Part shown: positions 6,346 through 20,324 of the stretch, in pieces
Layout: each line of letters begins with the position of its first letter
Numbering within the stretch: the first letter of the stretch is position 1
Translations under genes and position numbers: made by a program
Source: Bacteroidota bacterium
GTDB taxonomy: Bacteria > Bacteroidota > Bacteroidia > Cytophagales > Cyclobacteriaceae
DNA: 60,280 bases
Direction: 5' to 3'
NCBI GenBank assembly: GCA_018267285.1
Contig: JAFDYU010000001.1
Span: 1 to 60,280, forward strand
Notes under the pieces: generated by a model
Told to the model about the DNA's origin: nothing
Seen by the model: the letters and a program-made list of their open reading frames with translations, nothing else
Databases searched by the model: none

Positions 6346-8253
6346 TTACCCCTTATCTAGAACTTCATACCGAGAATAGTTGCTTTTGTATTCCGGCACT
6401 AACTCTTTCATGAGCGCAACACTTTTCAACTCATTTTTATCATATATTAAATCTTCGAAAAGCTCCACATACCGGTTGATTTCCTCATACTCGTAATGCG
6501 AAACTTTGGCAATCATGATCTTTTTATGATGTGTTTGCACAGCGTTTTCTTCTGTGTTTAGCAATTCTTCATACAGTTTCTCTCCTTCACGAAGTCCGGT
6601 AAAAACAATGTCTATATCTTTTCTGGGTTCCAGCCCCGAAAGCCAAATCATTTTCTCTGCGAGGTCAAGTATTTTAACCGACTTCCCCATATCGAAAATA
6701 AAAATCTCGCCTCCTTTGCCCATTGTGCCAGCCTCTAAAACAAGTTGACAGGCTTCCGGAATCGTCATAAAATAGCGCGTGATCTCCGGGTGGGTTACCG
6801 TAATAGGGCCGCCTTCTTCAATCTGCTTTTTAAACAAAGGAATTACTGAACCGTTGGAACCCAACACATTGCCAAAACGTGTGGTTACAAATGCGGTGCG
6901 ATTTTTTCCGTTCTTCTCAATATAGTCATTGTACGATTGTACATAAATTTCCGCTATCCGTTTAGAGCATCCCATCACATTGGTGGGGTTAACGGCTTTG
7001 TCGGTAGAAATCATTACAAACTTGGCAACGCCATATTCCACAGACAGGTCGGCCATTACCTTTGTGCCTAATATGTTGCAGGTGATCGCTTCGGATGGAT
7101 TGGCCTCCATCACAGGCACGTGTTTATAGGCCGCAGCGTGGTAAACTATAGACGGACGGTGCTCTTCAAAGATAGAGCGCATTCTATCTTTGTTATTTAC
7201 ATCTGCTAAATACCAATTTAGATGAGCACCGGTTTCCATAGATCGAGACTCGCATTCCAATTCATACAAAGCAGATTCTGCCTGATCGATAAGTGTAATG
7301 GAGTTTGGATTAGCGAGAGAAACTTGCCTGAAAATTTCCGAGCCAATTGAGCCGGCCGCTCCTGTTATTAGCACGCGTTTCCCTCTAAGGTCAGACTCAA
7401 TGTTTTTGTTTTTAATTTTGATAGTCTCCCTACCGAGCAACTCTTCGATGTTAATTTCTTTAATTTGATTGAGGCTAAGTTCTCCCTTCACCCATTTTTC
7501 TACCGGAGGTACGGTTCGAACTCTAACTTGACAATGAATGCAAGCATCAACAACTTCATTTTTCCTCTCCAACGAAATCTCTTTTGCAGTAAATATCAAT
7601 TCGTCAATCGAGTATTCGGAGAGCAGTTGAGAAAGTTGAGAAGTATTTCCATCAAAAATAGGAATTCCGTCTATCACCTTGCCGGCCTTATCTGGCGCGT
7701 CTTCAATAAAACCTACCACCATCATACGCGGAGTCGATTCAAGTACGTGGCGCGTGATTATCCCCGTCTGTCCGGCACCGAAGATGAACACACGCGCCTG
7801 ATTGATCACCGAATTTTTGTAATACGAAAATATATACTTAACAAGCAACCGATAATTTAACAGGAGAAGAAAAGCAGAAAGCAGACTTATCAAAACAACC
7901 GAGTACGGCACAAGATTGGCCTGACCATTTAGCTTGAAAGCTATGTTCGCTGCAGAGACTAACGCCACATTGACCAGATTCATGTAAAATATTCTGGCAC
8001 TATCCTGTATCCCTGTATAGCGGATGATGCCCCGATGGCTGTTGGTAATTAAAATGGAAATGAGTCCACAAAAAGTATAGACCAGGATTCCCGTTTTAAA
8101 ATTATAGTGAGTTAATTCACTAACAGAAAAGTTGAGTCGTAAAATATATCCTAGGAAGACCGAAAATGCTATAATGGCTACATCAATAAAAATAATCACC
8201 CAAGGGGGTAATATTTTCAGATTGCGAATAAACTTAATAAAAAAGCGAACCAC
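6346..8253 (-). CDS. PglF/FlaA1/CapD-type UDP-GlcNAc 4,6-dehydratase, membrane form
   Basis: 635 residues. It probably removes water from UDP-GlcNAc to give UDP-4-keto-6-deoxy-GlcNAc, the first step to bacillosamine-type sugars. Four N-terminal membrane helices lie within residues 1-130. A CoA-binding-like Rossmann domain (FIFGAGQTG) precedes a catalytic SDR domain (ITGAAGSIGSE). The usual YxxxK is MGCSK, with Met for Tyr, as in PglF and WbpM. STDKAVNP is conserved. It is 8 bp downstream of the small 8262-8468 gene and probably shares its transcript. It supplies the substrate for the aminotransferase at 14430. Confidence 0.88.
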   Translation of the reverse strand: MVRFFIKFIRNLKILPPWVIIFIDVAIIAFSVFLGYILRLNFSVSELTHYNFKTGILVYTFCGLISILITNSHRGIIRYTGIQDSARIFYMNLVNVALVSAANIAFKLNGQANLVPYSVVLISLLSAFLLLLNYRLLVKYIFSYYKNSVINQARVFIFGAGQTGIITRHVLESTPRMMVVGFIEDAPDKAGKVIDGIPIFDGNTSQLSQLLSEYSIDELIFTAKEISLERKNEVVDACIHCQVRVRTVPPVEKWVKGELSLNQIKEINIEELLGRETIKIKNKNIESDLRGKRVLITGAAGSIGSEIFRQVSLANPNSITLIDQAESALYELECESRSMETGAHLNWYLADVNNKDRMRSIFEEHRPSIVYHAAAYKHVPVMEANPSEAITCNILGTKVMADLSVEYGVAKFVMISTDKAVNPTNVMGCSKRIAEIYVQSYNDYIEKNGKNRTAFVTTRFGNVLGSNGSVIPLFKKQIEEGGPITVTHPEITRYFMTIPEACQLVLEAGTMGKGGEIFIFDMGKSVKILDLAEKMIWLSGLEPRKDIDIVFTGLREGEKLYEELLNTEENAVQTHHKKIMIAKVSHYEYEEINRYVELFEDLIYDKNELKSVALMKELVPEYKSNYSRYEVLDKG

Positions 8254-8261
8254 GTTTTAAG

Positions 8262-8468
8262 TTATTGTGTCTTCTTAGCAGAAGCCTTCATCAACTTGCG
8301 AGCCCCTAAAAATGCACCAACACCAAGCAATACCTCAATACCTGAAATTGGAACAGGCGGAGGGCAAGGAGGCCTGGGGCATGGTTTTCCTCCCCCACCG
8401 CCAGGCTGGGCAGATAAACCAAAAAACAAGAAAAAAGCAAATAGAAGACTGGCTGAGTATTTTTTCAT
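8262..8468 (-). CDS. Short exported protein with PID-CTERM-like sorting tail
   Basis: 68 residues. A signal peptide ends at about LSAQ. A Gly- then Pro-rich linker follows (with CPRPPC), and then a tripartite C-terminus: the turn PISG, a hydrophobic helix EVLLGVGAFLGA, and a basic end RKLMKASAKK. This layout is that of C-terminal sorting signals, and the PI-x-G start resembles the Bacteroidota PID-CTERM class. It lies between the giant T9SS protein (6 bp) and the dehydratase (8 bp), about 7.5 kb from the exosortase genes. I infer it is a processed surface protein, possibly an XrtF substrate. A plain small membrane protein is the alternative. Confidence 0.6.
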   Translation of the reverse strand: MKKYSASLLFAFFLFFGLSAQPGGGGGKPCPRPPCPPPVPISGIEVLLGVGAFLGARKLMKASAKKTQ

Positions 8469-8474
8469 CTTTAA

Positions 8475-11400
8475 TTATTCTTTAACAATACGAACCACCC
8501 AAACCCTGCCTCCTTGATTTATTCTTGCGTAATAAATACCGCTACTCTGATTCCCAAAAAAGTAATTGGCTGAATTATTTTGACCATTAAAACTGAAATT
8601 AATGGGTGAGATATGTTGCCCAACAGAATTATATACGTCTCCTTTGGTTTCTGATGCACCCGATACTTCTACTTTCATCATTTCTCTTACCGGGTTAGGG
8701 TAAACATTTATACCGTTTTCTGATCCGGCAATACTTGTGATAACCATTTCTTTCTCTGTAGATACCGAGCACCCCTGAGATGTAACTTCAACCTTGTAAA
8801 TACCAGACTCTTCAACTTTCAAAACCTGATCCGTTGCCCCGGGAATGGGTTGATCATTCAAATACCACTGATTCCCTTTGTTGTAGCTTGATTGAAGTGT
8901 TTGGAGATCAACTACTGAAATAGATACAGGAGTTAAAGAAACAACGTTGGCCATTACCGGTATCCGGTTGCCTTCACATCCCAGACTATTAGAAATTGAA
9001 ACATAAAAATCCTTGCTCTTACTCAATGTATTGGTAGTAAATTCAGCTGTTTGGGTTGCATAGCTTGATGTCGCGTTCAGCGAATCATACCAATTGTAAT
9101 GTCCACCATTCGGAGCACCGGATGCCGTAAGGGTTACTGGGCCAGACCCGCACGACAACGATGAAGAAACCGTTGCAGGAGTACCGGGTGCAGCCACATA
9201 CGAAACCGAAACACTGTCTGCGGCAGTCAAAGAATAGCAATACCTGCCTTTTTCTAAAATGATAAATTTATTCGAACCGGCCACAATCTTATTAGATGGG
9301 ATAGCAAAGCTCAAATCGCCTCCGGTACCTGCTACTGAAGGTATAATCACCGATTGATCAGAAGCAGACGCTAAAGAATAACTGAAATCGGTCGAGCTGT
9401 TTTGTATTGTAATTTTTGCCTGGGTGGAATCGCACACGGAACTATTTTGAGTCGTGATTGGCACAACACCTCCCTGATAAGAAAACATAAGGCTAAACCT
9501 ACTTGCTCCAAATGTTGCGGCTGTATTTTGATCTACAGAAAAGGAATAGGTTTGATTGGTTCTAATATCAGTAGTAGAGTTCGTATAGTTATCTTTCAGT
9601 TGAATTGTCATGGAAGAAGGTAGCCCGGCATAATCGCTAAACGATAAACTATACGTTCCGGTGGCTACGTCACTCACATCCAATGCCATGTTCATAGCGC
9701 AATCGTGGAAGGGCAAACCATTGATCGCATAATTTTCGTTTTTAGCCGACACGGAAGAAAGATTCAAATACCAATATTGATTTCTTCTTTTCAACGCATC
9801 GTATTTTTTGTCAAAATCGGCTGTGGTTGAATCTGAAAAATAGATTACCGTTTCGTCTTTTTGATTATCTGAATTGAGTGTAACCCGAATCAAATTGGTG
9901 GGCGCGGCTTGACGGTAAAAGGCAGATTGCAGACCCGGCACTAGAACCGTGTTTACTTTTGAAGACTCGGTTAACTGAATGGAGGGGCTGGCAGCATTTG
10001 CCTTCACCCAAAATCCCTGACCAGCCGCAATATAGTTTGCGGGAATGCTGTTGAAGTTGTTTGTAGAAACTCCGGCCACATAAGATACAAAAACAGGGGT
10101 TGCTGTTGAGTAATCATCGAAGTAAATGGCATCGTCAACGTTGGTTAAGGTAGCCGTAGTCCAATCTATTGTAGATGGATATGGGTTTCCCACCAGGTTC
10201 CAGCCATTATTTGCAACACCACTGCCTTTGTCGGTGTAAGTAACCGGCAGGCTAATATTTCCACTGTGAATCGGCCCTCTCAACGACCAAAGATCGGCAC
10301 CATTGGTTTCTGAATCGGCACCAAAGATAAAAATTGAGTACCCCTGCCCCGTTGTAAAGCTTTCGGTATTTGTTGAAACAGGGAAATCAGCCCAGCCGTC
10401 ATCTAAGGTAACTTGGCTGTCTCCGTTTGTATCAGTAGTAGTTGTTTCCGTGTATTGCTGCATCGAAGACGATGTATTGGAAGCACCCGACACAGAGCTC
10501 GCTCCGGTAAACGGGCCGGTAACAGGCAAAGAACTTTGTAGGTCGGCTACATCAGAAGTAACGGGTGCAGAAATATCGCGCCACACCTGATAGTTGTAGG
10601 CCGGGTCACCTATCCTAGCCATGTAGCGTTGAACCGTTACATTTCCGGTAACTGCGCCCCCTGTTTGTATAGGGGCAATGCTTGCATCGGTCACTGGTTT
10701 TTCGGCAGACGATATGAGTCTAAATACCCTGTTGCCGGCTGAACCGTCTGCATCAAACGTGGCAGCCCCAACATCCAGTATATTTATTAAATCAGCTCCT
10801 GACGAGTTTTCCAGTCTTAAGTCAGTAGCAGGTACTCCATCGGTGACTGATATATTGTAAAAAGTGAATTTTGAACTACCTGCTATTTGAGCCGTTGCAT
10901 TGTTCGGTGCGAATGTAACGATGCCGGAATTGTGTGTAAATGTACCGTCATTTTGTAGCGTTCCTATCAGGTTCAGGCTTGAAGGCGCGCTGAATGTTGC
11001 ACCGCTATTAACTGTGATTGAGCTAAAATTAGTAGCTCCAGCACCTGTAATTGTTTGAGCAGACGTTCCGGCAAATATTATTTCACCATTATTAGCCGTG
11101 AACGTTCCCCCGGTTACAGTCAAATTCCCCGATGTAAGAGTGAGCGTACTGCTTGGCTCAGTGAATACGCCACCATTAAGGTTCATCTGTAGAGCAGATA
11201 TTGCATTGGCTCCAGAAGAAAAATTACCGCTTGTTTGTGTAAACCCGGATGTGCCTGTAACGTTCATTGGATCGGTGAGGGTAACCGTAGCCCCACTTGT
11301 GGCAGCAACAGTTACATTTAAAAGCACTCCTCCGGAAGTAGGAACTTCAAAGCCTGTGTTATAATTAGCAGTATTTGAATAGGTCAAATCCCAAGAACCG

Positions 11401-14273
11401 GATGGGCTTGATGTGGTTATTCTTCCGGCCACTACATCAATTGATGCGCCACTGTTCATGTTTAACAAGTTACCCGTGATTGACAGTGTTCCGCGAGTGA
11501 GAGTTATATTATTAGTGACTGTTTGTGCAGAGCTAATGGTAACCGTATTACCATTAACGCTTTTATTTAGCGTGAGATTGTAAAACTGAGTATTTGATGT
11601 TCCCGACACTGTCTCCGTTGTATTACTTCCAAAAGATACTGTATTACTGCCCGCTGTAAACGATCCATTATTGGTAAAATCTCCGGTTAGATTAAGGGTT
11701 GAAGGAGAAACAAGGGTTGCCCCCGAATTAATTACAACTGTGCGAAAAGTTGTTGTAGATGCATTTGATCCTAAAATATTTTGAGGTGAGCTCCCGGCAA
11801 ATATTAATTGACCTGAGTTGTGGGTGTATATACCGTTAATCGATATATCCCCTGTCAAAGTCAACGTTGTGTTTGGTGCCGTGAATGTACCCGAGGTTAT
11901 GGTTACTGTTGGCGTTGAAACGGCATTAGCCCCGCAACTAAAATTTCCACTTGTTAAGGTAAACCCCGCAGTACCTACGGTCATAGCACTACTGAGGGTG
12001 ACGGTGCGGGTATTGGTAACAACCGTAACCCCAAGCAGGCTACCGCCTCCCGATGTTGGTATTTCCAATCCGGTGGTGTAAGCTGCAGTAGTGCCTGTGT
12101 ACGTTAAATTCCACGCACCTGTGGGGCTGGAAGTAGTTACCAAACCTCTGACAACATTTACGGTTACACCACTGGTGAGTGATAGTAAATTGCTTGTGAT
12201 TGCCAACGTGCCAGCAGTTAACAAAGCCACACCGGAGGGGTTGGTCATAGAGACTGCTGCATTTACGTTGCACGTACCCTGAGTTAGCGTAAAGTTATTG
12301 GTAATGGTTTGTGCCGAACTGATTGTTACCGTGTTTGCAGCAGCAGTTTTGGCAACTGTCAAATCATAGAATTGTGTATTTGACGAACCCGAAACAGTTT
12401 GGTTTGCACTATTCTCAAAACTAACCGTGTTTGTACCTGCTGTAAAAGTGCCATTGTTTGTAAAATCACCGTAAACATTAAGGGTAGCTGGTGAAACTAA
12501 AGTAGCTCCTGAATTGATGATAATCGTATTAAAATTAGTGGTCGAAGCATTCGTACCCAGAATTGATTGTGCGGTGCTCCCAGCGAATATCAATTGACCG
12601 GAGTTGTGGGTATATGTACCGCTCACCGAAATATCGCCTGTTAGTGTAAGCGTTGAGCTTGGAGCGGTAAAAATGCCACTCGAAATGGACAGGCTGGAAG
12701 TTGAAACGGCATTGGCTCCACAGGTAAACCTCCCAGCGGTTTCAGTTAAACCTCCACTACCAATAGTAAGGGCTTGATTCAGTGTAATAGTACCGGTGTT
12801 TGATGTAGTCAATCCATTTAATATACCTGAGGCGGGTATCTCCGGGCCTGTTGTTTTCGAAGTAGTGCCGGAATAATTTAAAGTCCAGGGGCCGCCTGTA
12901 GGGGATTGTGATATGGTGGTTGGAGAAGCAGCAGCTGTTGAATTAAAATTAAAAACAGATCCCGAAGACAAATTTAAGCCGGAACTGATATCAAATAAAC
13001 CATCCGTCAGAGTTAGGGTATTGGTTACATTCAAGCCCGATGCCCCAACCTGCACCGAAGTTCCGGTATTTGTTTTATTGATGGTAAGGCTCTGCAACGT
13101 ATTGTTGGAACCAACAAAATTAATGGGCGATGTCAACGGTGTTGAGCCTGTTAACGTAAGGGAGGATGCACCACTTGCAGAGAGAAGGCCACTCGAAGTA
13201 AAATTATTCGCCATGGAAAGCGATTGTCCATCAAAAGCGAGTACCGTGCCCGAAGCCATTGACACAGCACCTGTGATAGAAGTCGCTGCCCCAACTATTA
13301 CCGTTCCTGCATTTATCGACACAGCTCCTGTAATAGAAGTAGTTCCGCCAAATGTTACGGTGCCTGAATTTACCGTTGCAGTGCCGGTAATTGAAAGGTC
13401 ATTATTGAAAGTGATAGACCCTGACGTTCTATTAAACGTAAGGTTTCTCATAGTCTGGCTACCGCTTGGAAAGGGGAATGTTCCAAGTGCCCCTGTTCCA
13501 TTTACCGTGAGGCTATTACTTGTTCCTGAAAAATTTATGTGATTTAAGTTAGAGGTAATATTACCGTTAAGTGTAAGCGATGATGTGCCCACAATGTTTA
13601 AATCTCCATTTGTTAAAATTAGATCGCCTGGAATAGTGACTGTACCGCTTGATGAAACTCCACTATTGTTATTTATTTCAGTTATTACTCCAGAGATTGT
13701 AGGTTGTCCATTGCCAATAAATTGTGCACCTGCACCTGCATAAACTATGGTAGCACCTGAGTTGTAGATTCTGTTGGCCACTGTTGTCCTAATATTGCCC
13801 CGGCTTGTATTCGCTACCAAGGCTCCCGTAGTATTAAGCGATCCATTTTGCAACGTTCCGTTAACAACGAAGGATCCACTAGGGGCGAGTGTTCCACCAC
13901 CACCTCTTAATATAGATTCTGCTAACATATTTAACGTTCCATTCACAACAAGGGCATTTATTACACCCCTGAGTGTAAGCGTAATGGCATCGGAGACTAC
14001 TAGCGTACCTCCTACATCAACAGTTGTTTGGTCAATTGTTACGTTTGCAGAAACAGTAACTACATCATTTGCCCTAATCTCAATTGTGTTGCTCGCTGAA
14101 GTTGGTGTACTCGAAGCAGCCACCCACGTACCTGATCCATTGGGTGTTTCTACCTGCCAGGTTGTGGTTGCGGACCAAAGCCCACCGCCTGTGCCGTTAG
14201 ACCTGAAGTTGGTCTGAGCCGAACCGGCCAGTGAAAATAAAATTAAGCTTGCAAGCAGTGCATATCTTTTCAT
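8475..14273 (-). CDS. Giant repetitive surface protein with T9SS type A sorting domain
   Basis: 1932 residues from ATG 14273 (M-K-R-Y-A-L-L signal peptide ending AGSAQ); other in-frame ATGs lie just upstream. The first 1100 or so residues are Thr/Ser/Asn/Gly-rich beta-solenoid-like repeats with GDFTNNG and HNSGQLIFAGS motifs. The middle contains a region typical of T9SS surface proteins (GQGFWVKA), then two Ig-like segments with single Cys pairs. The last 80 residues are the T9SS sorting domain (VYPNPVREMMKVEV, ending SGIYYARI and VRIVKE). It is probably an adhesin or sheath protein exported by T9SS. It follows the exosortase operon by about 150 bp on the same strand. Confidence 0.88.
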   Translation of the reverse strand: MKRYALLASLILFSLAGSAQTNFRSNGTGGGLWSATTTWQVETPNGSGTWVAASSTPTSASNTIEIRANDVVTVSANVTIDQTTVDVGGTLVVSDAITLTLRGVINALVVNGTLNMLAESILRGGGGTLAPSGSFVVNGTLQNGSLNTTGALVANTSRGNIRTTVANRIYNSGATIVYAGAGAQFIGNGQPTISGVITEINNNSGVSSSGTVTIPGDLILTNGDLNIVGTSSLTLNGNITSNLNHINFSGTSNSLTVNGTGALGTFPFPSGSQTMRNLTFNRTSGSITFNNDLSITGTATVNSGTVTFGGTTSITGAVSINAGTVIVGAATSITGAVSMASGTVLAFDGQSLSMANNFTSSGLLSASGASSLTLTGSTPLTSPINFVGSNNTLQSLTINKTNTGTSVQVGASGLNVTNTLTLTDGLFDISSGLNLSSGSVFNFNSTAAASPTTISQSPTGGPWTLNYSGTTSKTTGPEIPASGILNGLTTSNTGTITLNQALTIGSGGLTETAGRFTCGANAVSTSSLSISSGIFTAPSSTLTLTGDISVSGTYTHNSGQLIFAGSTAQSILGTNASTTNFNTIIINSGATLVSPATLNVYGDFTNNGTFTAGTNTVSFENSANQTVSGSSNTQFYDLTVAKTAAANTVTISSAQTITNNFTLTQGTCNVNAAVSMTNPSGVALLTAGTLAITSNLLSLTSGVTVNVVRGLVTTSSPTGAWNLTYTGTTAAYTTGLEIPTSGGGSLLGVTVVTNTRTVTLSSAMTVGTAGFTLTSGNFSCGANAVSTPTVTITSGTFTAPNTTLTLTGDISINGIYTHNSGQLIFAGSSPQNILGSNASTTTFRTVVINSGATLVSPSTLNLTGDFTNNGSFTAGSNTVSFGSNTTETVSGTSNTQFYNLTLNKSVNGNTVTISSAQTVTNNITLTRGTLSITGNLLNMNSGASIDVVAGRITTSSPSGSWDLTYSNTANYNTGFEVPTSGGVLLNVTVAATSGATVTLTDPMNVTGTSGFTQTSGNFSSGANAISALQMNLNGGVFTEPSSTLTLTSGNLTVTGGTFTANNGEIIFAGTSAQTITGAGATNFSSITVNSGATFSAPSSLNLIGTLQNDGTFTHNSGIVTFAPNNATAQIAGSSKFTFYNISVTDGVPATDLRLENSSGADLINILDVGAATFDADGSAGNRVFRLISSAEKPVTDASIAPIQTGGAVTGNVTVQRYMARIGDPAYNYQVWRDISAPVTSDVADLQSSLPVTGPFTGASSVSGASNTSSSMQQYTETTTTDTNGDSQVTLDDGWADFPVSTNTESFTTGQGYSIFIFGADSETNGADLWSLRGPIHSGNISLPVTYTDKGSGVANNGWNLVGNPYPSTIDWTTATLTNVDDAIYFDDYSTATPVFVSYVAGVSTNNFNSIPANYIAAGQGFWVKANAASPSIQLTESSKVNTVLVPGLQSAFYRQAAPTNLIRVTLNSDNQKDETVIYFSDSTTADFDKKYDALKRRNQYWYLNLSSVSAKNENYAINGLPFHDCAMNMALDVSDVATGTYSLSFSDYAGLPSSMTIQLKDNYTNSTTDIRTNQTYSFSVDQNTAATFGASRFSLMFSYQGGVVPITTQNSSVCDSTQAKITIQNSSTDFSYSLASASDQSVIIPSVAGTGGDLSFAIPSNKIVAGSNKFIILEKGRYCYSLTAADSVSVSYVAAPGTPATVSSSLSCGSGPVTLTASGAPNGGHYNWYDSLNATSSYATQTAEFTTNTLSKSKDFYVSISNSLGCEGNRIPVMANVVSLTPVSISVVDLQTLQSSYNKGNQWYLNDQPIPGATDQVLKVEESGIYKVEVTSQGCSVSTEKEMVITSIAGSENGINVYPNPVREMMKVEVSGASETKGDVYNSVGQHISPINFSFNGQNNSANYFFGNQSSGIYYARINQGGRVWVVRIVKE
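10900..12760 (-). repeat. Internal long tandem repeats in the giant T9SS gene
   Basis: Two blocks share long identical stretches at a period of about 786 bp (262 codons); compare the sequence around 12601 with that around 11815. Both encode HNSGQLIFAGS, INSGATLVSP and DFTNNG in the same order. A third, more diverged block lies near 11085. The size and similarity make this region prone to copy-number change and to assembly collapse. Confidence 0.8.
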
Positions 14274-14429
14274 ATCCATCATTCTTAAATACCAAGGTGC
14301 TGTTTGCATGTGAACTAAAGTAATCAATTTCACCCTAAAAACACAAAAATAGCAAATATTGCGGTTATAGATAACCTGCATTTAATGCTACAAGTTTTGC
14401 AAGTGTAACCCTTACTTTACAAGTAGAAA

Positions 14430-15548
14430 TCACATCTTAGACCTAATATTATCAACAATAAAGCCAATCTCTTCCTCGGTAAGGTTTGAGCCAGAAGGAA
14501 GGCAGAGACCCTTCAAAAAAAGTGATTCCGACACTCCATTGACATAAGCCGGAGCATTTTTAAAAATAGGCTGTACGTGCATGGGTTTCCAAAGGCGTCT
14601 TCCTTCTATATTTTTTGTCTCAAGTTGGGTCAATACTTCCCCAACTTTATGTTCGAAATTCGATTTTATCAAAACAGTGGTAAGCCAACGGTTCGAAACC
14701 GAATTTTCAGCTTCCAATTGAAAAGAAAACTGCTCTTCTCCAAGTTTATTTTTGTAAGTGCAAAAATTTGCCCTCCTCGTTTTGATTCGCTCCTCTAAAA
14801 CATGCATCTGGCCCAAGCCGATGCTCGCACAGATGTTGCTCAACTGATAATTATAACCGACTTCCTCGTGCAGATAATACGGAGCCGGAGTTCGCGACTG
14901 GCTTGAGAGAAATCGCGCCCGGTCAATCCATTCTTTACAGAAAGAAACCATTGCCCCTCCACCCGAAGTAGTTATGATTTTATTTCCGTTAAATGAAAAT
15001 ATGCCAATATCTCCAATCGTTCCGGCTTTTCGTCCATTGTAAATTGACCCGAGGGCCTCGGCTGCATCTTCAATCACGGGTATTTCATGTTGTTTTGCTA
15101 TCGGCATAATCTTATCCATGTTGGCCGGCATTCCAAAAAGGTGAACCACAATAATCGCCTTCGGTTTTTTTCCAAGTCGTATTCGATCTTGAATGGCCTG
15201 CTCTAACAAAGTGGGATCCATGTTCCAGCTTTCCGGTTCGGAATCTATAAATACTGGCGTTGCAGATTGATACATGATTGGATTACAAGAGCCCGAAAAC
15301 GTAAACGAAGAGCAAATCACTTCATCGCCTTTGCCAACCCCTAGTGTAATGAGAGCCAAATGAATGGCTGCTGTGCCCGAACTCACCGCTACACAATGAT
15401 CGATGGCATTATACTGTGCAAGTTTATTTTCAAACTCGGTGATGGCTGGGCCAACGGGCGCGATCCAATTGGATTTGAAAGCACGTTCGATATATTTTTG
15501 CTCTTCGCCACACATGTGTGGAGGCGACAGGTAAATCCGTTTGCTCAT
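14430..15548 (-). CDS. DegT/DnrJ/EryC1/StrS aminotransferase (PglE-like)
   Basis: 372 residues. It is a PLP enzyme that transfers an amino group to a 4-keto sugar nucleotide; PglE makes UDP-4-amino-4,6-dideoxy-GlcNAc. The PLP Lys is Lys190 in SFNGNK. Asp161 in EDAAEALG binds the PLP ring nitrogen. SSGTAAIHLAL and the C-terminal LCLPSG are family features. Its start overlaps the stop of the XrtF-associated gene by 4 bp. PglF-like, PglD-like and PglC-like neighbours point to bacillosamine; other amino sugars are possible. Confidence 0.88.
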   Translation of the reverse strand: MSKRIYLSPPHMCGEEQKYIERAFKSNWIAPVGPAITEFENKLAQYNAIDHCVAVSSGTAAIHLALITLGVGKGDEVICSSFTFSGSCNPIMYQSATPVFIDSEPESWNMDPTLLEQAIQDRIRLGKKPKAIIVVHLFGMPANMDKIMPIAKQHEIPVIEDAAEALGSIYNGRKAGTIGDIGIFSFNGNKIITTSGGGAMVSFCKEWIDRARFLSSQSRTPAPYYLHEEVGYNYQLSNICASIGLGQMHVLEERIKTRRANFCTYKNKLGEEQFSFQLEAENSVSNRWLTTVLIKSNFEHKVGEVLTQLETKNIEGRRLWKPMHVQPIFKNAPAYVNGVSESLFLKGLCLPSGSNLTEEEIGFIVDNIRSKM

Positions 15549-15964
15549 CCTCTTGCCGAAAATTTCTGGAAATATACAGCAGGGATTAACAAAATCATCA
15601 ACGTAGGGTTAATGATCAAACGATGGAATTGCGACAATAAAGGAGATGATATTTCTGAGCTTCCTTCAACGGAGAGTTTGATGGCCAGATAAATCGGCAA
15701 CAAAATTAAACCATCAATAAGTTGAATCGCGATAGCCAGCCTCGTGATTCGCCAATCTTTAAACCAGGCTATAATAAAAATCAGCATGAAAAAATCGTTT
15801 AGCAAAACACGCAAGATTTTTTTTGTAATAAACTTCAGGTTTTCGGAGAGGTGAAATGCATCTACAAAAGAAAACTCTTGAAACAAAAAAGTAAGAGCGA
15901 TGCCGGATACTGAAATAGCCAACAGCAATCTGTTTAATTTAGGGTCTTCTAAAATCTTATTCAT
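15545..15964 (-). CDS. Exosortase F system-associated membrane protein
   Basis: 139 residues from ATG 15964, which overlaps the XrtF stop by 4 bp (ATGA). There are about four hydrophobic helices, the motif RVLLNDFFML in the middle, and NPTLMILLIPAVYFQK near the end. This is the conserved small partner found next to XrtF in Bacteroidota; its biochemical role is unknown. Overlap with genes on both sides makes co-translation with XrtF and the PglE-like aminotransferase likely. Confidence 0.8.
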   Translation of the reverse strand: MNKILEDPKLNRLLLAISVSGIALTFLFQEFSFVDAFHLSENLKFITKKILRVLLNDFFMLIFIIAWFKDWRITRLAIAIQLIDGLILLPIYLAIKLSVEGSSEISSPLLSQFHRLIINPTLMILLIPAVYFQKFSARG

Positions 15965-16488
15965 GTTTTTACGCTTCGCACCCAGAAATACCACAACACG
16001 AAAACAACCACATAGATGATTCCCGTAAAAAGATATTTGTGAAAAAAGTACAGCTGCTCCGGAAAATAAAAGGCAACCCCATAAAGCAAACCGATACGTG
16101 CAATATTTAACACATGAATGCTTATTAATCCAATGCCGGCATATTTTGCAAATAGTTTTACCGGTCCACTGAATGCTACGATAAAACTAAAATATACAAT
16201 GACAACGTTCACACCATTGCAGCCTTCAAAAACATAAATCAGTGTTTCTCGGTCATTTCCTACAGCAACGTATTCCGAAAAACCAGAAGGGAAACTTGCA
16301 ATAGAACTATCAAAAAAAGAAAGAAACCAAACTACCTGACTGCTCACTGAGCGTGTAATCGGATCTGACGTAGGCAAAAAAGTTTGAGTATAAAAACCAT
16401 ATATCGTATTCAGGCCGATGTAAAGCGCAACGAAGACAAGCAAAAATGTAATTGCCTTTTTGTTTTGTTTAATAAAATCAAAATTCAT
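15961..16488 (-). CDS. xrtF: Exosortase family protein XrtF
   Basis: 175 residues. Exosortases are membrane transpeptidases that cut C-terminal sorting tails and probably transfer the protein to another molecule. The three family catalytic residues are visible: Cys90 in FEGCNGVNV, Arg131 in NIARI, and His150 in FFHKYLF. About five membrane helices surround them, and a short C-terminal helix ends VRSVKT. Its start overlaps the acetyltransferase stop and its stop overlaps the partner's start, both ATGA junctions. This places it in the middle of a glycan operon. Confidence 0.88.
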   Translation of the reverse strand: MNFDFIKQNKKAITFLLVFVALYIGLNTIYGFYTQTFLPTSDPITRSVSSQVVWFLSFFDSSIASFPSGFSEYVAVGNDRETLIYVFEGCNGVNVVIVYFSFIVAFSGPVKLFAKYAGIGLISIHVLNIARIGLLYGVAFYFPEQLYFFHKYLFTGIIYVVVFVLWYFWVRSVKT

Positions 16489-17132
16489 GACTTTGAAATA
16501 ACTCTTGCGGGCACTCCCATAATTTTTTTGTCACTTGCGAACGATTTGGTCACCACAGACCCGGCTCCTATAATACAAGACTGCCCTATTTTTACACCTT
16601 GAATCAGCCTTGATCCGGTTCCAAGCAGGCAACACGCACCAATGCTAATGTTTCCGGATATGCTGCACGCTGGCATTACCGTGCAAAAATCGCCCACACA
16701 TACATCGTGACCAATTGTTGTTGAAAGATTGATGATGGCAAAATCACCAATAGATATTCCGGTAGTGAGAATGGCTCCTGCTGTTACGATACTGCCTTTT
16801 CCAAATTTATTTTTTAATTGATCGCCAAGCATGGATGAAGGATGAGCCAATACCGGGAACTCAATATTTTTGTTTGTTATTTTAGACACCAACTGTTTTC
16901 GGGTTAGCGGGTCTGCCACCGCAACACATAACGAAATTGACGATGGAAATGAGTTCAATTCATGGATTCCCCCAAGAACCATAGATCCTTCAACGGTTTC
17001 ATTTTTCGGGATACCGTCATCAAAAAAACCAACCAAATCCCAAGTAGGCGTAACTTCATTGATCTGCGAAATCATGAGCAGCATTTCGCGACCAAAGCCA
17101 CCCGCGCCATAAATTGCAATCTTGTTTTTCAA
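16485..17132 (-). CDS. PglD/NeuD-type sugar O/N-acetyltransferase
   Basis: 215 residues. An N-terminal Rossmann-like domain starts KIAIYGAGGFG, and a left-handed beta-helix of hexapeptide repeats fills the C-terminal half. The catalytic His is in TTIGHDVCVGD. The family acetylates 4-amino sugars (PglD) or sialic acid (NeuD). Next to dehydratase and aminotransferase genes, N-acetylation of UDP-4-amino-4,6-dideoxy-GlcNAc is the likely reaction. It overlaps the PglC-like gene upstream and xrtF downstream by 4 bp each. Confidence 0.88.
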   Translation of the reverse strand: MKNKIAIYGAGGFGREMLLMISQINEVTPTWDLVGFFDDGIPKNETVEGSMVLGGIHELNSFPSSISLCVAVADPLTRKQLVSKITNKNIEFPVLAHPSSMLGDQLKNKFGKGSIVTAGAILTTGISIGDFAIINLSTTIGHDVCVGDFCTVMPACSISGNISIGACCLLGTGSRLIQGVKIGQSCIIGAGSVVTKSFASDKKIMGVPARVISKS

Positions 17133-17698
17133 TTACCGGTAAATTTTCCTTCGTTCAAAGATACATCCTTCTTAAATGATAGCAGTAAAGCAATAGTTTT
17201 TATCAAGATCAACACATCAAGCCGAATGGAAACATGTTTGATGTAATACAAATCGAGATCGAATTTCTTCTTCCAATTTATTTCATGCCTGCCATTTACC
17301 TGCGCCCATCCGGTGATGCCCGGCAAAACCCGATGTCGTTGTTTTTGGTATTCGGCCATTAAGGGCAAATACTCTAAAGGCAATGGCCGTGGGCCGATGA
17401 GCGACATCTCCCCTTTCAACACATTCCACAACTGTGGAAGCTCATCGAAAGAAAAAAAGCGCAAAAAATCACCCCACAAAAATCTACGCTTATCCAAGTG
17501 TTCTGCTTTAAGAGTACGGAATTTGTAAAGCGTGAATGATTTATTCTCTTTCCCAATCCTTTCTTGTGAAAAGAATACAGGAAATTGCCAAGTGAGTATG
17601 TAGACCATCAGAATAAAAAGGAAAAACCAGCTCAGGCAAACGATCAATATTAAAGCCAATGTGAAATCTAAAATTCGTTTGATGAAATTAAGATACAT
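17129..17698 (-). CDS. PglC-like monotopic phosphoglycosyltransferase
   Basis: 189 residues from ATG 17698; ATG 17728 is in frame and adds 10 residues. It transfers a sugar phosphate to undecaprenyl phosphate. The single re-entrant hydrophobic segment (residues 8-35), the QERIGKENKSF region, the catalytic Asp-Glu in FSFDELPQ, and the SLIGPRPLP and PGITGWAQVNGRHE motifs identify the bacterial sugar transferase family. The short length is that of PglC, without the WbaP N-terminal domain. It overlaps the WecA-like gene. Confidence 0.9.
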   Translation of the reverse strand: MYLNFIKRILDFTLALILIVCLSWFFLFILMVYILTWQFPVFFSQERIGKENKSFTLYKFRTLKAEHLDKRRFLWGDFLRFFSFDELPQLWNVLKGEMSLIGPRPLPLEYLPLMAEYQKQRHRVLPGITGWAQVNGRHEINWKKKFDLDLYYIKHVSIRLDVLILIKTIALLLSFKKDVSLNEGKFTGN

Positions 17699-18674
17699 GG
17701 CTAAGGTTTTGTGTCTTGATTTTAACAAGTACCCGGTATCGTAAAATCAAATAAGTAATTCCATAAGCTAGTACTACAATAATTGGGACGAATCGGTTGT
17801 GCTGAGTGAAACCCCATATCAATATTCCATTAAAAAAAGCTTGACTCAGCGCATAGCAGCATGAAACAACAAGCTGAGGGAGTTTCATTTCGTTGGATAG
17901 ATATTGAAACAGATGAGTTCGGTGGGCTTTAAAAATATTTTCTTTCCGCATCAACCTGTACACAATGGTAACAATTGAATCAATGCCATACACCAGAAAC
18001 AGAAAGATCCAAAAAAAACTGTGCGTGGCAACCATCAACTGTATCATAACAAAGATTAAAATCAATGCGATGGTAACGCTACCCACATCGCCCGCAAAAC
18101 AACGTGCTGTTTTGCGGAAATTAAAAAAAAGAAAAATTACTACCGAAGTTAAGACAAACAACAACAAGTGGGTATCGGTAAAGTGAACCACCCAACCATG
18201 AATAAAAACAAAAGTAATTAAGGTGACCAATGCATAGATTCCGGTAATGCCGTTAATGCCATCCATAAAATTAAAGGCATTCATCGTGCCGATAAAAATA
18301 ATTAACAAGAAGAGCAACATAAACCATGACCAATCGATCGGCCACTGTTGATAAAAAATCAAGAGTACCGAAAACAACTGAACCAAAAAACGAAGGATGG
18401 GCTTAACCGAAGAAATGTCGTCTAAAAAACTGATTGTGGCGATCAGCAAAATTGAAAATGTAAACCAAGGCCAATTGAATTTGCTTTGAATAAACCAAAA
18501 CAAAACACTGAATAAAAATATTATTCCGCCTCCGCGAATAATTGGGTGTTCGTGCGAACTTCTCGCGTTGGGTTTGTCGATTATTTTAAACCTCTCCGCT
18601 AATTTAAAATAAAATAATTCTGCAGCGAGCAACAAAACAGTTACTGCAAATATGGAGATCAAGTTAATTTCCAT
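17688..18674 (-). CDS. WecA/WbpL-like polytopic glycosyl-1-phosphate transferase
   Basis: 328 residues with about ten membrane helices. It belongs to the MraY/WecA/WbpL family, which links a HexNAc phosphate to undecaprenyl phosphate. The family motifs are present: DKPNARSSHEHP...RGGG near the N-terminus, FLDDISS (Mg-binding Asp pair), NFMDGINGITG, and CFAGDVGSV, with an HRTH motif in the last cytoplasmic loop. It is followed by a second initiating enzyme, and preceded by its typical epimerase partner (WbpV-like), overlapping by 11 bp. Confidence 0.88.
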   Translation of the reverse strand: MEINLISIFAVTVLLLAAELFYFKLAERFKIIDKPNARSSHEHPIIRGGGIIFLFSVLFWFIQSKFNWPWFTFSILLIATISFLDDISSVKPILRFLVQLFSVLLIFYQQWPIDWSWFMLLFLLIIFIGTMNAFNFMDGINGITGIYALVTLITFVFIHGWVVHFTDTHLLLFVLTSVVIFLFFNFRKTARCFAGDVGSVTIALILIFVMIQLMVATHSFFWIFLFLVYGIDSIVTIVYRLMRKENIFKAHRTHLFQYLSNEMKLPQLVVSCCYALSQAFFNGILIWGFTQHNRFVPIIVVLAYGITYLILRYRVLVKIKTQNLSHVS

Positions 18675-19581
18675 CGAACGATCGAATTGTTTTTATCAAT
18701 CCTGCTTCTAAGCTAAGCGGCATAGAACTGCCCATTGCTTCGGAAATTTTATTATTTGAAACCATCATATCCTCTGTCAATTTATTGAGCATTGAAGTTT
18801 TACCTACCAATGCCGCGCAACCTTCCATTATTTTTCTCGGCACATGCACCACTCTTGAATTCTTACCTAGGCTTTTTGCAATGATGTGGTACAATTGGGA
18901 TGTAGATAAAAATCCATTATCTGCTAAATGGTAAATTCCGGAATCAATATCTTTTTCAATCAAAGCTTGAATCACAAAACAAAAATTATCAATACCATGA
19001 AAAGAACGTTGATTGTGGAATGCACCCAAAGGAAAGGGCAACCCATATTTTACAAACCGATACAGTAAATTTAAATTTCCTTTGTTGCCGGGGCCGTGCA
19101 TCATAGCCGGGCGTAGAATAAAAATTTTTTTACTTCCCCACTCTTTCGACAGAATGTATTCTTCTGCTTTCCGTTTAGATTTTCCGTAATGAGTAACCGG
19201 CAGTGGAGCTATTGATTCTAATGCGGGAGTCGAAGAAACATCGCATGCGGCTTTAATGGAGCTTACGAAAATAAATTTTGTGGCCTTTGATTTTAAGAAT
19301 TGATCTACAATGCTTTTCGTGCCTTCGTAGTTCACAGTATAATAGTCTTCCGGTTGGTAGTTTCCTTTCAAATCGTGTGCGATCCCGGCCAAATGAACAA
19401 CCGTATCCACTTTGTTTTCATCTAATGTTATTGAGTTACCATTTTCAAGAAAAACAAAATCTTGACACGTTGTCTGTTTCCTTCCGTAACCAAACAACTT
19501 GTAGTGTGGTAGATTCTTAAAATGCGCTACCAAGTTAGAGCCCACAAATCCCGATATACCTGTAATTAAAATCGTGCTCAT
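18664..19581 (-). CDS. NAD-dependent epimerase/dehydratase (WbpV-like)
   Basis: 305 residues. It is an extended SDR with the NAD-binding GISGFVGSN at residues 8-16, a catalytic YGKSK, and VHLAGIAHD. Such proteins are regularly encoded beside WecA/WbpL-like transferases and reduce or epimerise the 4-keto sugar of the priming nucleotide (as in UDP-QuiNAc formation). The exact product cannot be read from the sequence. It overlaps the GT2 gene by one base. Confidence 0.82.
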   Translation of the reverse strand: MSTILITGISGFVGSNLVAHFKNLPHYKLFGYGRKQTTCQDFVFLENGNSITLDENKVDTVVHLAGIAHDLKGNYQPEDYYTVNYEGTKSIVDQFLKSKATKFIFVSSIKAACDVSSTPALESIAPLPVTHYGKSKRKAEEYILSKEWGSKKIFILRPAMMHGPGNKGNLNLLYRFVKYGLPFPLGAFHNQRSFHGIDNFCFVIQALIEKDIDSGIYHLADNGFLSTSQLYHIIAKSLGKNSRVVHVPRKIMEGCAALVGKTSMLNKLTEDMMVSNNKISEAMGSSMPLSLEAGLIKTIRSFDGN

Positions 19582-20324
19582 CAGATCAGTTCGAATATTT
19601 TGCGAAAATATTTACTGTAAACCATAAACGCATTTGAGTAGATGCCATTCTCGCGGCAAGCACGTACAATCTCGCGGTTTAACACCACGTTGCTCATAAA
19701 ATTTTTGGAGCTTACGCCACCTTTGCGCATGGTTACCATGGTAAGCGGAATGTATTTGTATTTTAATCTATTCACCAACAAAAAACGAATGAGCAATTCG
19801 TAGTCTGCAGCGATCTGATAATCTGTTTTAAACAATCCAAGCTGGTCGTAATATTTTCTCCGAACAAAAAAAGTGGGGTGCGGAGGCATAAAACCCCAGG
19901 CAAATTTTTTAGGGTTCCAGTGAGATGCCGAATAAGTACGAAGAACCTTAGATAAATTTTTTGGATCTACGAATACCAGATTACCAAATACGGCATCAAC
20001 AGAGTGGTCAACAAATTCATTGGCCACCTGAGAGACGATCGTATGGCTCGCATAAAAATCGTCCGAATTTAAAATGCCTACCACTTCGCCCGTGGCCATC
20101 TTCAATGCTTTGTTCATCGCATCGTAAATTCCGCGGTCGGGTTCGCTGATCCATTTATCTATTCGTCCTTCATTTTGCCTGATTATATCAAGAGTGCCGT
20201 CCGTTGAGTTGCCGTCCACCACAATGTATTCGATGTCTTTGTAATCTTGCGACCGCACTGAATTTATTGTATCACCGATAGTAGCTGCCGAATTAAAGGC
20301 AACTGTGATCAACGAAATTTTCAT
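19581..20324 (-). CDS. Glycosyltransferase family 2
   Basis: 247 residues. GT-A fold: SLITVAFNSAATI at the start, IVVDGNSTDGTLD, and a metal-binding NSDDFY. The PDRGIYDAMNKAL motif is typical of the WcaA/WfgS-like branch that extends O-antigen or exopolysaccharide units. It is the first gene of the eight-gene operon. A possible promoter lies 30-60 bp upstream on the minus strand (TATTTTG near 20353-20359 with TTTTG about 16 bases before it). Confidence 0.85.
   Translation of the reverse strand: MKISLITVAFNSAATIGDTINSVRSQDYKDIEYIVVDGNSTDGTLDIIRQNEGRIDKWISEPDRGIYDAMNKALKMATGEVVGILNSDDFYASHTIVSQVANEFVDHSVDAVFGNLVFVDPKNLSKVLRTYSASHWNPKKFAWGFMPPHPTFFVRRKYYDQLGLFKTDYQIAADYELLIRFLLVNRLKYKYIPLTMVTMRKGGVSSKNFMSNVVLNREIVRACRENGIYSNAFMVYSKYFRKIFELI

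Follow-up and report, generated by a model that had tools for sequence, protein, structure and literature searches.

The exosortase families considered here were reportedly described by Haft in 2012. The substrates of PEP-CTERM systems are usually numerous and larger than the one proposed here, and XrtX and the PID-CTERM proteins form what we take to be a cognate pair. In the PEP-CTERM/EpsH system the sorted proteins carry a tripartite tail (motif, helix and basic end) and are associated with glycan genes (PMC7468200). Exosortases tend to occur with exopolysaccharide clusters (PMC10936215), and archaeosortase A, the best-studied member of the wider group, both cuts its substrate and attaches a lipid to it (PMC7157517). 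In Flavobacterium johnsoniae the loss of XrtF costs most of the biofilm (PMC10936215), and according to a 2025 paper the proteins that XrtF acts on have yet to be identified (PMC12188702). Here we describe an XrtF gene and its surroundings in a stretch of 60,280 nucleotides (hereafter the window) from a member of the Cyclobacteriaceae (assembly GCA_018267285.1, contig JAFDYU010000001.1). What we add is a concrete candidate that is very probably the substrate, a mini-protein of 68 residues encoded in XrtF's own cluster, which would fill this gap with a single protein and makes the function of the XrtF family directly testable. Genetically, the cluster also links three surface systems: the type IX secretion system (T9SS), a pathway for an amino sugar and an exosortase. 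We found no mention of an exosortase together with bacillosamine, or of PID-CTERM, in the open-licence papers searched, so reports in print elsewhere are possible.

The mini-protein gene (8262-8468, minus strand, like all the genes described below) is located between the gene of a giant T9SS protein and a PglF-like gene. Its product (MKKYSASLLFAFFLFFGLSAQPGGGGGKPCPRPPCPPPVPISGIEVLLGVGAFLGARKLMKASAKKTQ) is built of a predicted signal peptide ending A|Q, the segment QPGGGGGKPCPRPPCPPPVPIS, then G-I-E with a hydrophobic helix, and a basic tail; the mature part has about 20 Pro/Gly-rich residues followed by V-P-I-S-G before the helix. When tails in the vicinity of Xrt genes were sought by hydropathy alone, 21 hits were obtained, two of which (loci L041 and L050) led further. 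Scanning the neighbourhoods for exosortase-like tails returned secreted proteins of 62 residues in L041, L049 and L050 and PID-type ones in other loci, and the L041 protein had one match in the genome of the window (E 2.9e-4), which lay inside the cluster at 8262-8468. The mini-protein was the only match in its own genome with the L041 query and with two tail profiles, A1 and A2. Profile A1 consists of 20 mini-protein sequences. In most of them the signal peptide is followed by A-Q-P-G, and the helix is marked by V-P-I-(T/S)-G-(I/V)-E. The core P-I-(T/S)-G occurs in 16 of the 20 rows, the others having PIDG, PLGG and, twice, PFGG. In these rows 13-22 residues separate the presumed signal-peptide cut from the presumed sortase cut.

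XrtF itself (15961-16488, 175 residues) exceeds the TIGR04128 cut-off of 90 bits, at 116.5, and reaches 41.4 bits with the exosortase/archaeosortase model TIGR04178 (cut-off 23), of which it is the sole match in its own genome; it also matches the XrtX model NF046081, at 94.8 bits, below the XrtX cut-off of 170. The first-pass annotation of the window had reported that XrtF keeps Cys90, Arg131 and His150, and all three turned out to be invariant in 54/54 aligned XrtF/XrtX proteins. These catalytic residues and the TIGR04178 score identify XrtF as a predicted member of the exosortase/archaeosortase superfamily, with a predicted cleavage-and-joining activity. Its partner, an exosortase F-associated membrane protein of 139 residues (15545-15994, likely start ATG 15964), passes TIGR04127 by a slim margin (36.6 bits, cut-off 35) and, despite being a small membrane protein, has R52, N56, F68, R115 and P120 invariant among 42 aligned sequences. 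The predicted structural models have a pLDDT (predicted local distance difference test score) of 96.5 for XrtF and 84.2 for the partner. XrtF family membership over the curated cut-off and a TIGR04127 partner are also found at Fjoh_1448-1449 of F. johnsoniae.

For comparison, XrtF/XrtX loci were collected from one genome scan (24 loci, which are close relatives because they were found by XrtF similarity) and from further genomes (80 stretches); with the window they made 105, or 102 after removal of three duplicates. In the tree built on the 102 rows, the XrtF of the window falls in a branch of 50 rows (support 100/99) together with flavobacterial-type XrtF and apart from the XrtX-like rows. 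This branch splits into 21 flavobacterial-type rows (a working label for rows from families f6 and f7, with L054 from Flavobacteriaceae) and 29 Cytophagales-type rows (support 100/98), which include Cyclobacteriaceae, Chryseotaleaceae and one row labelled Chitinophaga, and which we call the clade. Cultured relatives that carry the cluster include Chryseotalea sanaruensis (L044) and Chryseosolibacter indicus (L051). In almost every locus, whether flavobacterial-type or Cytophagales-type, the XrtF gene overlaps the gene of its partner.

Within the clade, the mini-protein gene lies directly upstream of PglF in 20/20 loci whose stretch reaches the downstream PglF (window included, some being near-copies), a count that is descriptive only, because these loci also supplied rows of profile A1. 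In locus L040 the mini-protein follows the giant and PglF is elsewhere, and the remaining 8 of the 29 loci have no mini-protein within the fetched stretch. In six of these eight (L036, L038, L043, L046, L048, L056) the sequence stops 1.0 to 5.1 kb past XrtF, and L057 and L069 reach 9.0 kb; a mini-protein match lies elsewhere in the genome for three of the eight, just beyond the stretch in L057 (G186), on another contig in L056 (G553) and about 28 kb off in L069 (G400). Outside the clade, a mini-protein was found upstream of none of the six PglF-like genes.

The co-occurrence of the mini-protein tail with the exosortase was assessed in two samples of genomes, any TIGR04128 match at E<=1e-3 counting as positive for XrtF/XrtX. 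In the order sample (241 genomes, 80 positive), a tail-reaching A1 match at E<=1e-3 was present in 69/80 positive against 2/161 negative genomes (G471, G577); within the window's own family the figures are 9/9 and 0/16, two of the 16 negatives (G561, G591) having A1 matches at about 0.04-0.05. In the phylum sample (395 Bacteroidota genomes, 115 positive), profile A2, made of 30 tail sequences with PID and flavobacterial-type ones among them, matched at E<=1e-3 in 95/115 positive and 0/280 negative genomes, and in 77/97 and 0/279 once the possible donor genomes of A2 were set aside. Fisher values of 8.5e-46 (order sample) and 5.7e-72 (phylum sample) overstate the case, because the genomes are related. 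A fairer test is a set of 40 genomes of the family, one per genus, picked for a PglE homologue: here the tail is found in 15/16 positive genomes (the miss is G650) against 0/24 negative ones, with G320, G585 and G591 having been searched earlier and G638, the genome of L045, being a row donor to A1 and A2.

A natural comparison was provided by the surroundings of PglE in 20 further genomes. In the five loci with XrtF within 8 kb (L167, L168, L169, L177 and L172, the last being L045), the T9SS giant and the mini-protein were present in 5/5, whereas in the loci without XrtF nearby the mini-protein was absent in 14/15. Eight of these 14 (L171, L174, L176, L178, L181, L184, L185, L186) had no T9SS-domain gene in the stretch, and in those eight PglF overlaps PglE or follows it within 3.1 kb. 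Four of the 15 genomes (G643, G671, G645, G648) carry XrtF/XrtX elsewhere, and the exception, L170 in G643, has the giant and the mini-protein at PglE, while its XrtF gene is found on that contig at a distance of about 27 kb. At the level of sequence, gene order and co-occurrence strongly support the first-pass hint at the 8262 protein as an XrtF substrate. Because of the tripartite tail, the invariant Cys-Arg-His set, the near-exclusive co-occurrence and the shared cluster, we regard this assignment as highly likely.

The distribution of the tail shows two local peculiarities. In genus g12 of family f6 (L099, L104, L105, L106, L114), XrtF scores well over its cut-off and no tail was found at E<=1e-3; XrtF of this genus may use a different sorting signal. 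In genome G627 (L195, L202, L205), which has an XrtX-like gene scoring 61 bits, 12 mini-protein tails were counted, versus one or two per genome in the window's clade.

Among described systems, the mini-protein resembles XrtX/PID-CTERM (NF046081/NF046080), whose short secreted proteins are encoded close to an Xrt gene and have V-P-I-D-G-G in their tails, whereas the motif of the clade is P-I-(T/S)-G-(I/V)-E. The mini-protein of the window had no match at E<=1 in NCBIfam, PID-CTERM (NF046080, cut-off 26 bits) included, or in Pfam, and a Pfam scan of five mini-proteins gave no match for any. L045 was alone among ten mini-proteins in passing the PID-CTERM cut-off (27.1; L041 scored 20.6), which was also passed by two of ten mini-proteins from genomes with flavobacterial-type XrtF (L140, L148). 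With PEP-CTERM/EpsH the window shares the tripartite tail and the association with glycan genes, but it has a single tiny candidate substrate and another motif. V-P-I-T-G is also similar to L-P-X-T-G, the motif of Gram-positive sortases, although the LPXTG model matched only weakly and below its cut-off of 15.9 bits (14.0 for L051, 15.2 for L059). As the Gram-positive sortase is not homologous to XrtF, this likeness, including that of the Cys-His-Arg triad, would be convergence.

XrtF and its partner are part of a minus-strand operon (20324-14430) of eight genes, all seven junctions of which overlap in the open reading frame listing of the window, by 1, 11, 11, 4, 4, 4 and 4 bp in gene order, given ATG 17698 for the PglC-like gene and ATG 15964 for the partner. 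With both start codons chosen in this way, the serial overlaps of 1-11 bp claimed in the first-pass annotation hold, and so does its statement that XrtF and partner are joined to a PglD-like gene on the 5' side and a PglE-like gene on the 3' side, by 4 bp in either case. Overlapping genes are ordinary in operons. The overlap of PglD with XrtF is kept in 21/25 loci having both genes within 200 bp, and measures exactly 4 bp in 15 of them, start codons having been picked mechanically.

Homologues of PglF, PglE, PglD and PglC, the enzyme types of the Campylobacter Pgl pathway, are all present in the cluster; the difference from Campylobacter is that XrtF and its partner are inserted within the gene order. 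The PglC-like phosphoglycosyl transferase (17129-17728; PF02397, E 3.6e-56) has as best PDB match 8e37, 'N,N'-diacetylbacilliosaminyl-1-phosphate transferase' (E 2.6e-46). The best PDB matches by sequence of the PglE-like DegT-family sugar aminotransferase (14430-15548; PF01041, E 1.1e-97) are 1o61 (E 1.9e-105) and 4ztc (E 1.2e-104); it stays below the cut-off of the LegC-family model (378.9 bits, cut-off 420). The PglF/WbpM-like UDP-GlcNAc 4,6-dehydratase (6346-8253; PF02719, E 3.3e-120), encoded downstream of the operon, matches 5bju, 'WlaL protein', best (E 2.6e-87). These best matches, which we take to be Campylobacter Pgl enzymes, strongly back the predicted PglE, PglC and PglF types. The PglD/NeuD-family acetyltransferase (16485-17132, TTG start) scores 188.5 bits against TIGR03570 (cut-off 160.8) and matches 4m9c (E 5.1e-27) and 2npo (E 1.4e-12), which supports its predicted membership in the PglD/VioB/perosamine acetyltransferase group. 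The predicted product of the pathway is UDP-N,N'-diacetylbacillosamine, which would be transferred to a polyprenyl phosphate; the PglD-like enzyme could use another acyl donor.

The first-pass annotation had named the lack of a conserved link between XrtF and PglC, PglD and PglE in other genomes as grounds for refutation. Such a link is present in the Cytophagales-type clade and absent from the flavobacterial-type rows: PglD and PglE are found within 3 kb of XrtF in 27/29 of the former and 0/21 of the latter. Of the two exceptions in the clade, L053 has a contig that starts 717 bp before XrtF, with PglE present downstream, and L043 is without PglD and PglE. Among the 40 PglE-selected genomes of the family, 11 are over the XrtF cut-off, with XrtF about 3 kb or less from PglE in seven (G642, G635, G653, G638, G631, G634, G662) and not near the selected PglE in four (G643, G671, G647, G648). 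The link of XrtF with PglD and PglE is therefore real, clade-bound and not absolute; one spanning all Bacteroidota is ruled out by the flavobacterial-type rows. The first-pass interpretation is thereby supported in part, and its suggestion that sorted proteins may be attached to a bacillosamine-primed glycan or lipid would agree with the gene order.

A PglF-like gene occurs within 9 kb of XrtF in 4/21 flavobacterial-type loci; in two of one genus (L095, L113) it is full-length and no more than 600 bp from XrtF, in a stretch without PglC, PglD and PglE. Elsewhere in the tree, a separate XrtX-like group, family f24, has PglD and PglE alongside in 4/6 rows (L115, L117, L118, L123), directly upstream of the XrtX-like gene, so that PglD and PglE seem to have become associated with an exosortase there as well.

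The giant surface protein (8475-14381, 1968 residues) has at its end a T9SS type A sorting domain, on which PorU, a sortase of the outer membrane, acts (PMC7468200). Against TIGR04183 it scores 29.1 bits as a whole and 41.5 bits over its last 130 residues (cut-off 23). The protein at the giant's position exceeds this cut-off in 20/20 loci scanned, window included. In a wider neighbour scan with a home-made model of the TIGR04183 domain, all 39 rows of clade-type mini-proteins (29 distinct genes) have an open frame that starts within 50 bp of the end of a T9SS-domain gene; in G671 the mini-protein is on a separate contig, away from both XrtF and PglE, yet there too the gene immediately before it encodes a T9SS protein (L188). 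The genome of the window has 23 TIGR04183 matches, so that chance T9SS neighbours should be rare. Outside the clade, a T9SS-domain gene lies within 60 bp of 12/42 distinct mini-proteins (L065, L068, L071, L086, L088, L116, L157, L193, L197, L199, L201, L203; the domain matches of L086 and L197 are weak), and the other 30, nearly all flavobacterial-type ones included, have none at that distance. The 12 cases suggest that the pairing may reach beyond XrtF. A partnership of mini-protein and giant is proposed.

Taken together, these data point to XrtF as a dedicated intramembrane cysteine sortase of the mini-protein. The latter would be exported by its signal peptide and cleaved behind an Ala, so that Gln becomes its first residue and probably cyclises to pyroglutamate; since most signal peptidase I sites of Bacteroidetes expose a Gln that is cyclised in this way (PMC5837995), the N-terminus of the mini-peptide is probably blocked. 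The C-terminal helix would hold the protein in place, and XrtF with its partner would cut near V-P-I-(T/S)|G, the position between (T/S) and G being suggested by the location of the motif and its likeness to LPXTG. The resulting Pro/Gly-rich peptide of 13-22 residues would then be joined through its freshly made C-terminus to an amine, most plausibly on the lipid-linked product of PglF, PglE, PglD and PglC, and the peptide-tagged glycan or glycolipid would act at the surface with the neighbouring T9SS-secreted giant. That XrtF transfers the peptide to an acceptor rather than merely cleaving it is suggested by the lipid attachment that archaeosortase A carries out (PMC7157517), and seems to us reasonably probable; the Pgl product as that acceptor, for which gene order is the evidence, is a tentative choice and somewhat less likely than not. 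Leaving aside the identity of the acceptor, we lean slightly towards the explanation as a whole. It has a likeness in Porphyromonas gingivalis, where the C-terminus of T9SS surface proteins is joined to a modified amino sugar; there, however, PorU serves as the sortase and the Wbp/Vim pathway supplies the sugar (PMC7468200), whereas the window has an exosortase and a bacillosamine-type pathway. WbpE (3nu7) is a distant relative of the window's PglE (E 3.4e-37).

Several results weigh against this explanation. Comparison of the XrtF and partner models with the PDB gave no similar fold at E<=0.001, so that solved structures reveal neither the mechanism nor the function of the partner. The co-occurrence tests mix XrtF with XrtX, because any TIGR04128 match was counted, and the tail was missed in 11/80 positive genomes of the order sample and 20/115 of the phylum sample; over the XrtF cut-off it was found in 37/43, the six misses all belonging to genus g12. 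One observation cuts both ways. F. johnsoniae mutants that lack xrtF, the partner gene, Fjoh_0334 (a DegT aminotransferase), porU or porZ fall in the same phenotype row of Table 2, which includes much less biofilm (PMC10936215). This row counts in favour in being consistent with one pathway, and is consistent also with any loss of surface adhesion; as it also contains the mutant of a hypothetical gene, Fjoh_0651, it singles out no one pathway. In addition, 24/40 of the PglE-selected genomes have no XrtF/XrtX match, and PglC, PglD and PglE were found within 9 kb of flavobacterial-type XrtF in 0/21 loci, where the mini-proteins, unlike that of the window, lie away from XrtF. If XrtF cleaved only, the mini-protein would be the precursor of a pyroglutamate-capped peptide released as a signal or as a free matrix component, with no attachment to a glycan. 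The mature stretch of just 13-22 residues and the poor conservation between QPG and PI(T/S) would suit this, but the placement beside PglC, PglD, PglE and PglF is retained across the whole clade and archaeosortase A attaches what it cuts, and we consider such a release unlikely.

The counts of 24/40 and 0/21 mean that the acceptor may be something other than the sugar, and they also favour the view that XrtF sits in a glycan operon by exosortase habit (PMC10936215 for the tendency), the Pgl sugar going to a surface polysaccharide with no chemical link to XrtF. The genes upstream of PglC, which differ from locus to locus, agree with this; the close succession of PglD and XrtF in the clade and the second PglD-PglE linkage in family f24 speak for a link instead, and leave its absence less probable than its presence, at perhaps a minority chance. 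That XrtF processes the giant, or several other secreted proteins, with the mini-protein as an accessory, would fit with the giant being a fixed neighbour, yet the giant ends in a domain targeted by PorU rather than in a helix and basic tail, and 23 T9SS-domain matches stand against one mini-protein and one exosortase match in the genome; we hold this to be very improbable. A bolder version of the favoured explanation would have two sortases build an anchor, XrtF joining the mini-peptide to the bacillosamine-type amino sugar at the inner membrane and the peptide-glycolipid anchoring or docking the giant T9SS adhesin, whose gene is immediately upstream. A type IX secretion product would then be tethered by something that an exosortase makes, which we think quite unlikely. 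The N-terminal Gln rule does not argue against docking or a sugar amine; the N-terminal amine of the peptide itself as the nucleophile for PorU was rated low, given the same rule (PMC5837995).

The first three genes of the operon are a family 2 glycosyltransferase (19581-20324; PF00535, E 7.9e-25), an NAD-dependent epimerase/dehydratase (18664-19581; PF01370, E 6.2e-23) and a WecA/MraY-like polyprenyl-phosphate sugar-phosphate transferase (GT4; 17688-18674; PF00953, E 1.5e-20). Scans for promoters (38 versus a shuffle mean of 37.6) and terminators (15 versus 14.5) gave no excess over shuffled sequence. The WecA/MraY-like gene adjoins the PglC-like gene, so that sugar-phosphate transferases of the initiating kind, from two families, stand side by side with the epimerase before them, an arrangement presumably reminiscent of the WbpV/WbpL pair.

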